Below are positions 54,326 to 58,164 of a stretch of 64,000 bases of DNA, one piece after another. A program made the position numbers and the translations under genes. The notes below the pieces were generated by a model that was not told the DNA's origin, searched no databases, and worked only from the letters and a program-made list of their open reading frames with translations. The DNA comes from Pseudomonas paraeruginosa PA7 (GTDB taxonomy: Bacteria; Pseudomonadota; Gammaproteobacteria; Pseudomonadales; Pseudomonadaceae). Each line of letters begins with the position of its first letter. Positions within the stretch are counted from its first letter, which is position 1. The stretch spans positions 5,026,001 to 5,090,000 of the forward strand of contig NC_009656.1 in assembly GCF_000017205.1 (NCBI RefSeq), written 5' to 3'.

Positions 54326-54568
54326 CTAGCGGCGACGGAACCGCGGCTCCGGCTCCGCGCAAGGATCGCGCTGGGCGCAGCCCTTGCAGCCACCGCCGCA
54401 ACCGCCCGAGCCTTGCGCAGCCACCCGCTCGACCTTGCCGAGAGCGATCAGCCGCTCCAGGATCGCCTCCACCAGCGCCGGCGGCGCGTCCACCTGGCGG
54501 CTGAGCTGTTTCAGCCCGCGCGCCTGGCCGTCTTCCAGGGCGGCGCGGATCTGCATGAGTGTCGCCAT
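54326..54568 (-). CDS. feoC: FeoC
   Basis: 80 residues, small winged-helix partner of FeoB. The helical core MATLMQIRAALEDGQARGLKQLSRQVDAPPALVEAILERLIALGKVERV is followed by the four-Cys loop CGGGCKGCAQRDPC, a proposed Fe-S site. Two ATGs exist; 54568 is chosen because GGGAGG lies 9 nt before it and its ATG overlaps the feoB stop as TGATG, whereas the ATG at 54577 directly abuts the Shine-Dalgarno sequence. Confidence 0.88.
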   Translation of the reverse strand: MATLMQIRAALEDGQARGLKQLSRQVDAPPALVEAILERLIALGKVERVAAQGSGGCGGGCKGCAQRDPCAEPEPRFRRR

Positions 54569-56868
54569 CAGTGACATCCTCCCTGCCCGCCCGGGGCATC
54601 GACCATTCGGCCTGGCAGTTGCAGTACCTGCTCGCGGCCGAACAGACGCAGGCAGGTCATCAGGATCAGGTTGAAGACCAGCACCACGGCGATGGTCAGG
54701 ACGCTACGCTCGGGGTGCGCGGCGAAGGTGGCGACCTGGTAGCAGAGGGTCGCCAGCGAGTAGGCGACGTTCAGCCCCCAGAGCACCGAGAAAGCCATCC
54801 AGCCCTTGCTGCTTTCCCGGGCGATCGCGCCCATGGCGGTCACGCAGGGCACGTAGAGCAGGACGAAGACCAGGTAGCTGTAGGCCGCGATGGGGCTGCC
54901 GAACTTGCTCGCCATGGTGCCCATCGAGCCGGCCGCCATGTCGCCGTCGGCCATGCTCGCCTCCACCGGGTTGGCCAGCACGCTGAGGCTGAAGGTATCG
55001 ATCAGGCCGTCCCAGGTTTCGGTCAGGGCGTCGCGCAGCTGTCCGGGCAGGTCGTAGCCTTCGTAGTCGAAGGCCTCGCCCTGGATCTGCTCGGCGGTAT
55101 AGAGGGTGTTCAGGGTGCCCACCACCACTTCCTTGGCCATCGCCCCGGTGACCAGGCCGACGGTGGCCTGCCAGTTGTCCGGCTGCACCCCGAGCGGCGC
55201 CAGCAGCGGAGTGAGACGCTGGCTGACGCTGGCCAGCGCGGAATGGCCGATGTCGCCCCGCACCGGCTTGCCGTCGAGGGTGATGCTGTTCAGCCCGCCG
55301 ATCACCAGGCTGACCAGGATGATCACCTTGCCGGCCCGCACCACGAAGCCGCGCAGGCGCGACCAGGTCTGCAGCAGCAGGCTCTTCAGGTGCGGCACAT
55401 GGTACAGCGGCAGCTCCATGACGAAGGGCGAGGCCTCGCCGCGCATCAGGGTGTGCTTGAGCAGCAGCCCGGTGAGGATCGCCACGACGATGCCGAGCAG
55501 GTACAGGGAGAAGATCACCAGCGCGCCGCCCTGGCCGAAGAAGGCCCCGGCGAACACGGCGAAGATCGCCAGGCGCGCGCCGCAGGACATGAACGGCGCC
55601 ATCATGATGGTGATCAGCCGCTCGCGCTGCGCGTCCAGGGTGCGCGCGCCCATGATCGACGGCACGTTGCAGCCGAAACCGACGATCAGCGGCACGAACG
55701 ACTTGCCCGGCAGTCCCAGCGCCTGCATCAGGCGGTCCATGACGAAGGCCGCGCGGGCCATGTAGCCGGAGTCCTCGAGCAGCGAGAGGAACAGGTACAT
55801 CAGGCCGATCTGCGGCACCAGCGGCAGCACCGTGTTGACCCCGCCGCCGATGCCCTGGGCGAGAAACACCGTGAGCCAGTCGGGCAGGCCGAAGCGGATG
55901 CCCAGCCACTGGATGCCATCGATGAAGATCGCCGCCGAACCCTTGTCGAAGATCGGCTGCAGCGCCCCACCGATGTTGATGGCGAAGAAGAACATCAGGT
56001 ACATCACCAGCAGGAAGATCGGCAGGCCCAGCCAGCGATTCAGGACGATCCGGTCGAGCCACTGGGTCAGCAGGTGCGGCTGCGCCTGCTGGTGGTCGCA
56101 GACCGCCGCGCAGATCTCGCCGATCAGCCGGTAGCGCGCATCGACGATAGCCAGCTCGGGCTCCTCGCCGCAGGCCTGGCGCGCCTGTTCCAGGGTAGCG
56201 GGCGGCAAGCCCAGCGCCGGGCCGTTGAAGATGTCACCTTCCAGCGCCTGCAACGCCAGCCAGCGCGGTTCGATGGCCGAGGCCGCCGGAGTGCGCGTTT
56301 CCAGCAGGTAGCCTACCTGCGCCTCGATGGTCGCCGGGTAATCCACCGCCAGCGCCGCCTGCGGAACCTGCAGGTCGTCGATGGCCGCCTTCAGCTCGTC
56401 GATGCCATCGGCGCGGGTGGACACCAGCGGCACCACCGGGCAACCGAGGCGCCGCGCGAGTTCGTCGATGTCGATGCGGATCCGCTGGCTGCGGGCGATG
56501 TCCAGCATGTTCAGCGCGACGATGCAGGGGATGCCCATCTCCCGTAGTTGCACCGTGAGGTAGAGATTGCGCTCCAGGTTCGCCGCGTCCACCACGTTGA
56601 CCAGCACGTCCACTTCGCCACTGGCGATGTAGCGACACGCGATCTGTTCGTCCAGCGAGGCCTGGGCGGACACGCTGGTCAGCGAATAGGTACCCGGCAG
56701 GTCGACCAGGCGCACCGCGTGGCGGGCGGTGTGGAACGCGCCCTCCTTGCGCTCGACGGTGACGCCGGCCCAGTTGCCGACCCGCTGGCGCGAGCCGGTG
56801 AGCTGGTTGAACAGGGTGGTCTTGCCGGAGTTGGGGTTGCCGATCAGGCCGAGGGTCAGCGCGGTCAT
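54568..56868 (-). CDS. feoB: Ferrous iron transporter FeoB
   Basis: 766 residues. An N-terminal G domain (G1 GNPNSGKTTLFN, G2 region WAGVTVERKEG, G3 DLPGTYSL, G4 LNMLD) is followed by a guanine-dissociation-inhibitor-like helical region and a membrane part with the Gate motifs (PLIVGFGCNVPSIMGARTL, FMSCGARLAIFAVFAGAFF). The principal Fe(II) importer of the inner membrane, important in low-oxygen or acidic sites. Second gene of feoABC. 17 bases separate it from feoA. Confidence 0.97.
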   Translation of the reverse strand: MTALTLGLIGNPNSGKTTLFNQLTGSRQRVGNWAGVTVERKEGAFHTARHAVRLVDLPGTYSLTSVSAQASLDEQIACRYIASGEVDVLVNVVDAANLERNLYLTVQLREMGIPCIVALNMLDIARSQRIRIDIDELARRLGCPVVPLVSTRADGIDELKAAIDDLQVPQAALAVDYPATIEAQVGYLLETRTPAASAIEPRWLALQALEGDIFNGPALGLPPATLEQARQACGEEPELAIVDARYRLIGEICAAVCDHQQAQPHLLTQWLDRIVLNRWLGLPIFLLVMYLMFFFAINIGGALQPIFDKGSAAIFIDGIQWLGIRFGLPDWLTVFLAQGIGGGVNTVLPLVPQIGLMYLFLSLLEDSGYMARAAFVMDRLMQALGLPGKSFVPLIVGFGCNVPSIMGARTLDAQRERLITIMMAPFMSCGARLAIFAVFAGAFFGQGGALVIFSLYLLGIVVAILTGLLLKHTLMRGEASPFVMELPLYHVPHLKSLLLQTWSRLRGFVVRAGKVIILVSLVIGGLNSITLDGKPVRGDIGHSALASVSQRLTPLLAPLGVQPDNWQATVGLVTGAMAKEVVVGTLNTLYTAEQIQGEAFDYEGYDLPGQLRDALTETWDGLIDTFSLSVLANPVEASMADGDMAAGSMGTMASKFGSPIAAYSYLVFVLLYVPCVTAMGAIARESSKGWMAFSVLWGLNVAYSLATLCYQVATFAAHPERSVLTIAVVLVFNLILMTCLRLFGREQVLQLPGRMVDAPGGQGGCH

Positions 56869-56885: not shown

Positions 56886-57113
56886 TCAGTCGAGCGGGAC
56901 GAGGGTCAGCAGGGCGAGGTCCTTGCGCCGCAGCGCCAGGCTGGTCTGGCGGGTCTCGACCTGGATCGGGTCGCCCAGCGGGGCGATGCGCACCACGCGC
57001 AGCGCGGCGCCGGGCAGCAGGCCCATGGAGAACAGGCGCTGGCGATAGCCGTTGCCGATGGCCGGTGAATACCCGGTGATGCGATAGGTACGGGAAGGTT
57101 GCAGTGCGCTCAT
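56886..57113 (-). CDS. feoA: FeoA
   Basis: 75 residues, SH3-like beta barrel protein needed for FeoB activity. Sequence MSALQPSRTYRITGYSPAIGNGYRQRLFSMGLLPGAALRVVRIAPLGDPIQVE matches the family; the RxxLxxMGLxPG motif is intact. The start is taken at 57113; 70 codons of open frame upstream run through the promoter and are discarded. First gene of feoABC. Confidence 0.93.
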   Translation of the reverse strand: MSALQPSRTYRITGYSPAIGNGYRQRLFSMGLLPGAALRVVRIAPLGDPIQVETRQTSLALRRKDLALLTLVPLD

Positions 57114-57166
57114 GGCGGATTCCAGGCAGTAGGGAGGAACGGTGGCCTCCCTGGCCGCTGATCGAG

Positions 57167-57200
57167 AATCTAAACGACTCTCACTTAAGGCTCGCTTAAG
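57167..57200 (-). promoter_or_regulatory. BqsR-type box and -10 of feoABC
   Basis: TTAAGGCTCGCTTAAG (57185-57200) is an exact TTAAG-N6-TTAAG direct repeat, the site reported for the Fe(II)-responsive regulator BqsR; because each half is CTTAAG, it reads the same way on the minus strand (57184-57199). It ends 11 bp before a minus-strand -10-like TAGATT (57167-57172), the usual geometry for an OmpR-family activator. Confidence 0.75.
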
Positions 57201-57330
57201 GGCGCAGTATCGGAGCGGATGGACAGCGGATTCGCTGATCCAGAGCAATGGATGGAGGGATTTCCGCGCGGCGCGGCAATCTGTCGCCGCCAGCGCCCCG
57301 GGCAACGGAGCAACTGGCGACACAGCGGAT

Positions 57331-58164
57331 TCAGCGGCTGTTGAGCTGCTGTTGCAGGTTCTGCACCTGGGCCTGGAGGGTATTGATGTTACGCATCACC
57401 TGGGTGCGGAAGGCGTCGAACTCGGCGGTATTGCCACCCTGGGGACGATTGTCGAGCTGGCTGCGCAGCACCAGCAGGTCGTCCTGGATGCCCTTGATGG
57501 CCTGGCTGGGATTGCCCTGTTTCTTCAGCGCCGCGACGTCGCCACCGAGGCTCTTGAGCTGCTCGTTGGTCTTGCCCAGCTCGGCCTGCAGCGCCTTCAG
57601 CTTCTCCTGCTCGGTGGCCAGCGCCTGCAGCTTGCCGTCGAGCTGCGCGACCAGTTGCGCGGCGCTTTCCTGCTGGGCCTTGAGGTCGCTGGCCAACTGG
57701 TCGAGGCGCTTGCCCTGGCCGCCGAACTGGTTGCTCACATCGGCCTGCTGGCGTTCCTGGCTGCCGAGTTTCTCCTGCAGTTGCTTGACCTGCAGGCGCA
57801 GCGCCTCGCGCTCGCTGGTGACGCTGGACTCGCTGGCGACCACCTTGCCGCGGATGTCGTCGAGGCGCCCGGCGGCTTCCTCGCTGATCCGCACGAAGCT
57901 TTCCTGGGTCGCGACCAGTTGCTGCTCCATCAGGCTGAGCTGCTGGTGACTCCACCAGGCCACTCCGGCGAGGGCGATCAGCATCGCCCCGAGCAGGGCC
58001 CAGAGCGGGCCGGTGGAAGCCGGGCGGCGCGCCTTGGTATCTACCACCCGACGCTGTTCCGGTTCGTAGACGTGCCGCGGGTGGTGGCCGAACTCTTCGC
58101 GGTCGGCGGCATCGGTGGTCAGGCTGGGCACATCGTCGAGTTCGTCGAAAGAATCGTTACGCAT
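57331..58164 (-). CDS. Single-pass membrane protein with long coiled coil
   Basis: 277 residues. A hydrophilic acidic N-terminus (about 1-50) precedes one membrane helix (PLWALLGAMLIALAGVAWW, about 52-70) and a periplasmic coiled coil of roughly 170 residues (LMEQQLVATQESFVRISEEAAGRLDDIRG...LQAQVQNLQQQLNSR) with heptad Leu/Val. Topology resembles small division- or envelope-associated coiled-coil proteins but I cannot name a family. The start MRNDSFDELDDV has only a weak AGG. It is monocistronic and lies upstream of feoA on the same strand. Confidence 0.78.
   Translation of the reverse strand: MRNDSFDELDDVPSLTTDAADREEFGHHPRHVYEPEQRRVVDTKARRPASTGPLWALLGAMLIALAGVAWWSHQQLSLMEQQLVATQESFVRISEEAAGRLDDIRGKVVASESSVTSEREALRLQVKQLQEKLGSQERQQADVSNQFGGQGKRLDQLASDLKAQQESAAQLVAQLDGKLQALATEQEKLKALQAELGKTNEQLKSLGGDVAALKKQGNPSQAIKGIQDDLLVLRSQLDNRPQGGNTAEFDAFRTQVMRNINTLQAQVQNLQQQLNSR

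Follow-up and report, generated by a model that had tools for sequence, protein, structure and literature searches.

The feoABC genes of Pseudomonas paraeruginosa PA7 lie on the minus strand of a 64,000-nucleotide stretch of contig NC_009656.1 (assembly GCF_000017205.1, positions 5,026,001 to 5,090,000), which was analysed as a whole and is called the window here. The features of the feo promoter region are collected in Table 1, with positions counted from the first base of the window. The nearest upstream gene, which encodes a coiled-coil protein, is on the same strand as feoA, and thus the operator described below is not common to any divergent gene. An Rfam search returned no match.

Table 1 Genes and promoter elements at the feo locus (window positions)
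Feature	Position	Strand	Basis or assignment
feoA	56886–57113	−	NCBIfam PRK09555, ferrous iron transporter A, over cut-off
feoB	54568–56868	−	NCBIfam PRK09554 and TIGR00437, over cut-off
feoC-like	54326–54577	−	PRK15431 at 42.9 bits, below the cut-off of 111; named by position
Upstream coiled-coil protein gene	57331–58164	−	Weak coiled-coil matches only
Operator CTTAAG-CGAGC-CTTAAG (TTAAG-N6-TTAAG on both strands)	57184–57200	−	Predicted; most likely PmrA, possibly also BqsR
−10-like TAGATT, 11 bp downstream of the operator	57167–57172	−	4/6 to TATAAT
Fur-like imperfect palindrome GAGAGTCGTTTAGATTCTC over the −10	57164–57182	−	11/19 to the Fur consensus, better strand
Anr-like site TTGCTCTGGATCAG	57235–57248	−	8/10 to TTGAT-N4-ATCAA
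GATACT, candidate −10 of an ancestral Anr-type promoter	57206–57211	−	23 bp after the Anr-like site

Read along the minus strand, the region upstream of feoA carries CTTAAG (57200–57195), CGAGC (57194–57190) and a second CTTAAG (57189–57184), followed by the 11 bases TGAGAGTCGTT (57183–57173) and TAGATT (57172–57167), with the start of feoA at 57113. Two TTAA-core half-sites are therefore placed 11 bp apart, which is the layout of a PmrA operator, and the same letters contain the exact 6-bp spacer that the published BqsR consensus, TTAAG-N6-TTAAG, requires (PMC4682146; papers cited by PMC number were available in part, and statements drawn from them extend to their accessible portions). Because CTTAAG is its own reverse complement, the pattern CTTAAG-N5-CTTAAG is counted once per strand. 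As a direct repeat of a palindrome, the box gives no orientation, and we rejected it as a guide to the direction of transcription.

The exact box matches once per strand at this single site and nowhere else in the window. It is absent from all 100 dinucleotide shuffles of the window, and the seven occurrences of TTAAG on both strands lead to an expectation of about 0.0004 exact pairs. Across the whole genome (6.59 Mb), there are 12 strand-matches for the exact box versus 2 for the reversed pattern. When up to one mismatch is allowed, these numbers become 49 and 80, respectively, and so near-matches are not enriched by this control and only exact boxes stand out. The presence of the box in the feoABC promoter, with an exact 11-bp gap to TAGATT, is far beyond chance. 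An earlier sequence-only reading of this DNA had pointed to the repeat and its gap to TAGATT, had equated the box with the BqsR consensus and had placed it as an activating site for feoABC. The letters, shuffles and genome counts confirm the arrangement, the match to the consensus is exact (PMC4682146, accessible text), and the placement as an activating site is supported. A literature search using the letters of the box retrieved no related report.

TAGATT sits inside the Fur-like palindrome, and TTTAGATTC is also present in a sister genome (G020) that lacks the box, so this hexamer is not independent evidence. We infer a feoA start site near position 57160. A simple sigma-70 scan of positions 57080–57400 found no promoter, which is compatible with an activator-dependent promoter but is not support for one. 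On the feo strand the Fur-like palindrome matches the consensus at 10 of 19 positions, and seven positions in the window equal it in both score and symmetry; feoB is reported to be iron-repressed, with a consensus Fur site (PMC5192502, in part). As Anr-like sites, 19 window positions score at least 8.

FeoA was found at our cut-off in 20 of 25 genomes of the genus; the proteins from G001 and G013 are distant (46% identity), and a search across the family added eight further proteins outside the genus, all of them distant. Promoters were compared between this genome and 17 sisters whose FeoA is 66–74% identical. The sequence-only reading had proposed looking for the same spacing in other Pseudomonas feo promoters, and this check came out negative, with the box in none of the 17 sister promoters and a best match of at most 7/10 within 320 bp. 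Eight named feo loci, from P. jinjuensis, P. nitroreducens and relatives of which some are probably conspecific, also lack it.

The remaining architecture is shared. TTG-N6-RTCAG is present in all 18 promoters, and so is GNGAGTYNTTNNGATTC, a block overlapping the Fur-like site. In every sister (17/17), AATAAT follows TTG-N6-RTCAG after exactly 22 bp, whereas here GATACT follows after 23 bp. The Anr-to-Fur distance is 38 in 16 of the 17 sisters and 45 in the other, compared with 51 in this genome. From this comparison, an Anr/Fur promoter seems to have acquired the box specifically in this lineage; we read the change as a gain, and loss in all sisters appears less likely than gain in this lineage. 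Another PmrA-linked protein, SpeD2, was detected at E 1e-40 in just two of the 25 genomes, which suggests that the PmrA regulon may be larger in this genome.

The genome encodes 25 OmpR-type DNA-binding domains. The recognition helices of PmrA and BqsR, SNAIEVHVHHLRRKLG and SNVIEVHVNHLRRKLG, are identical at 14 of 16 residues, and thus sequence alone cannot name the regulator of the box. A regulator beside a DsbD-like gene, which we take to be DsbR, matches the PmrA helix at 13 of 16 residues, and the other 22 match at no more than 10. The sequence TTAAG-N6-TTATG occurs before this DsbD-like gene (G000:C1:2781903–2781918, where G000 is the source genome), and its neighbouring regulator is a possible third reader of the same type of box.

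Among solved structures, BqsR is closest to two CarR fragments, followed by the entries 8jo2 and 4s04 of BasR, the PmrA of enteric bacteria. PmrA is encoded in this genome and was assigned by its place behind speD2, its best NCBIfam matches being QseB and PmrA, both below cut-off. The BqsRS pair is also encoded, with BqsR recognized by its box-bearing upstream region and by an adjoining kinase carrying Glu45, Glu48 and Asn49, which are residues discussed for BqsS in the accessible part of PMC12666569. The gene content is consistent with Pseudomonas aeruginosa, and PA gene numbers given for genes of this genome follow the literature and were not computed. Co-occurrence was rejected as a discriminator, because BqsR is present in 25/25 genomes of the genus and PmrA (at least 80% identity) in 22/25, yet the box is at 0/17 sister feo promoters. 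Exact CTTAAG-N5-CTTAAG boxes precede each of two tandem carO-like genes in G013 (C47:262965–262981 and 263505–263521), a genome without an 80%-identical PmrA, and this counts against the PmrA reading of the feo box.

Other exact boxes were seen elsewhere in the source genome. At G000:C1:1640428–1640455, overlapping TTAAG-N6-TTAAG boxes are separated by about 560 bp and short open frames from a downstream UDP-sugar-dehydrogenase-like gene, presumably algD. Another exact box (G000:C1:661464–661479) is directly upstream of a membrane protein that by eye resembles the ferric-reductase type.

To compare the feo box with known promoter classes, models of the 17-base box were trained on arnB or pmrA sites versus bqs or carO sites and tested on the left-out promoter types. 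The expected sign was obtained in 183 of 184 held-out scorings (carO 52/52, bqs 50/50, pmrA 38/38 and arnB 43/44). For feo, each of the four trainings gives log-odds on the PmrA side (+3.7 to +10.4, or +7.0 to +10.8 once duplicate sites are collapsed), and the value is +11.9 with duplicates collapsed and the types pooled. Among 20,000 random exact boxes, however, 71% also score above zero; the pooled feo score is equalled or exceeded by 5% of them, a share that ranges from 2 to 22% when trainings are taken singly, and this bias weakens the score as a firm discriminator. Read on the plus strand, the feo box scores −0.6. The motif score thus favours PmrA for the feo box with moderate support only.

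Spacing between box and −10-like hexamer was compared across the 25 genomes. A gap of 10 bp separates the box from TAnnnT in 25/25 bqs promoters and in 26/26 carO loci (25 genomes). At arnB promoters, TAnnnT stands at 11 bp in 18/22 and is absent at 8–14 bp in four (G000, which is the arnB of this genome, G001, G002 and G003); the full arnB count, 22/22, takes in G011 and G005 despite poor boxes. Within the source genome, the feo (TAGATT) and speD2 (TATCGT) boxes have their hexamers at 11 bp, as do arnB and a PA4782-like gene, whose best hexamers are weak, whereas the distance is 10 bp for bqsP, carO and a carP-like gene. The feo box therefore departs from the bqs/carO geometry, with 11 bp versus 10 bp in 51/51 sites, although this geometry is a feature found in our comparison and not a published criterion.

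Spacing as a clean code for PmrA versus BqsR is weakened by the sister pmrA boxes, which have xAxxxT at 10 bp in 19/19 cases and TAxxxT in none, and by the speD2 box of G018, which also has its hexamer at 10 bp. These 19 pmrA boxes come from 20 loci fetched, G018 having no box near pmrA and the G021 locus being left out. Regulators were assigned to sister promoters by extension from work on P. aeruginosa, and promoters of orthologous genes do not count as independent cases. Spacing thus sets feo apart from BqsR promoters and leans towards PmrA, yet it is no proof of PmrA. The pmrA box lies about 90–108 bp upstream of pmrA in 19 of the 20 sisters fetched. The best box in both this genome and G018 is about 2.5 kb upstream, before speD2, and a rearrangement of the pmrAB promoter apparently accompanied the gain of speD2.

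The abstract of McPhee 2006 reportedly names feoAB as a PmrA target. Expression studies of P. aeruginosa connect feo with PmrAB. Expression of PA4357–4359 is raised in PAKpmrB6, a pmrB mutant resistant to polymyxin, and polymyxin B raises feoABC and ssuAC by 11.3–90.5 fold in PAK, a response called PmrAB-mediated (PMC6325167). Accessible text elsewhere describes feoAB as Mg2+-regulated via PmrAB, as reported earlier (PMC3742457), and as up-regulated by the PhoPQ/PmrAB systems (PMC4592263); all three papers cite McPhee 2006. In coculture with Staphylococcus aureus, calprotectin and zinc depletion, but not iron depletion, raise feoAB alongside arn and the pmrAB locus (PMC12455946), and a list of DSF-regulated genes includes PA4358/PA4359 and PA4774–4777 (PMC6536496). 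Contrary to a simple PmrA reading, in PA14 colistin lowers feoA 68-fold but raises pmrAB, arn, speD2E2 and PA14_04180, a BqsR target (PMC8120321, in part). Control of feo by PmrAB as well as by iron has thus been described before.

The box is probably an operator of the envelope-stress and cation regulator PmrA, added to the Anr/Fur feo promoter in this lineage. According to this model, two PmrA protomers would bind, presumably by direct contact, the CTTAAG half-sites phased by 11 bp, and the dimer would replace the missing −35 element and recruit RNA polymerase to TAGATT. Activation of PmrAB by low Mg2+, polymyxin or similar stress would then raise feoABC. Iron-loaded Fur at the Fur-like site over TAGATT could block the promoter and hence act as a veto, and the fall of feoA with colistin would fit a dominant iron veto of this kind (PMC8120321, accessible portion). 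An ancestral layer, comprising the Anr-type site and GATACT 23 bp downstream, would remain upstream, and BqsR may bind the box as well.

The sequence-only reading had named BqsR as the regulator. In this version, BqsS would respond to extracellular Fe(II) and activate BqsR to bind the box and turn on feoABC. The exact consensus agrees with this proposal, as do the presence of BqsR in all 25 genomes of the genus compared, the exact TTAAG pairs also found in the carO promoter of this genome, and the reported sensing of Fe2+ by BqsS (PMC12666569, in part). We nevertheless consider this explanation improbable, because the PmrA helix is nearly the same, the accessible papers credit PmrAB, the spacing is that of neither bqs nor carO, and the motif score falls on the PmrA side. 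Moreover, feo is absent from the main text of PMC4682146, in which the predicted but silent BqsR targets overlap the Anr regulon, and PA4357–4359 are absent from the main text of PMC12802237, even though the BqsR regulon is up in the Cpx mutant described there under iron-rich conditions. Colistin moves PA14_04180 and feo in opposite directions (PMC8120321), and an importer switched on by its own substrate would contradict Fur repression. BqsR is thus probably not the regulator, or is at most one of a pair. That second option, an operator shared in vivo by PmrA and BqsR through which envelope stress and extracellular Fe(II) would both feed into feo, is unlikely but deserves somewhat more credence. 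The helices differ at only 2 of 16 positions, and reported BqsR targets include arnB and PA14_63110 (PMC8120321) as well as arn (PMC7916210, both in part), although the effects on arn and PA14_63110 may run through pmrAB. Nothing in the accessible literature, which takes in few subscription papers, describes BqsR as binding or regulating feo, and no expression result there links the two.

It is very improbable that the box is inert at feo, with Fur and Anr alone setting expression as the layout in sister species would suggest. All 17 sister promoters manage without the box, calprotectin raises feo only when oxygen is absent, which fits control by iron and oxygen (PMC12004955), and many boxes with high scores give no BqsR response (PMC4682146). 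An inert box is at odds, however, with the rise of feoABC in the pmrB mutant and with polymyxin (PMC6325167) and with the response of feoAB to zinc rather than iron depletion (PMC12455946, accessible text in each case).

If assignment of the box to PmrA is right, the motif-based assignment is corrected: the Fe(II) importer would be tied through PmrA to envelope and cation stress, with a possible Fur veto, and not to a sensor of its own substrate. PmrA would also account for the rise of feoAB on zinc but not iron depletion, which its authors called ‘unexpected’ (PMC12455946, in part). A consensus box common to paralogous regulators would then permit no assignment without geometry and context. 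A bolder proposal, which we regard as doubtful though worth stating, is that a single base pair of distance to the −10 keeps two paralogous readers of TTAAG-N6-TTAAG apart (10 bp for BqsR at bqs and carO, 11 bp at arnB, speD2 and feo), and that such a box wired the Fe(II) importer to envelope stress in this lineage. Such a code, if true, would help to explain why most strong BqsR boxes are silent to BqsR (PMC4682146, accessible text).

Among known systems, the closest are the PmrA-type operators of Pseudomonas arnB and speD2-pmrAB, which like feo have TTAA half-sites 11 bp apart. The 11-bp distance to a −10-like hexamer is shared by arnB (18/22) and by speD2 of this genome, and polymyxin induction is reported for all (PMC6325167, in part). 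In contrast to the two perfect palindromic CTTAAG halves at feo, sister arnB halves are mostly TTAAC, and the feo box differs further in adjoining a Fur-like site. The BqsR (CarR) operators of bqsPQRS and carO share the consensus TTAAG-N6-TTAAG with feo, but they stand 10 bp from the hexamer in 51/51 sites and often have a TTCAG half, and those of carO form arrays of pentamers. The feo promoters of P. nitroreducens, P. jinjuensis and other sisters resemble the one described here in having an Anr-like site and a Fur-like block before feoA, yet they lack the TTAAG box and carry AATAAT at exactly 22 bp after the Anr-like site. In Salmonella, feo is activated by RstA, which like PmrA and BqsR is an OmpR-family regulator. 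There, the regulator and its DNA site are different.
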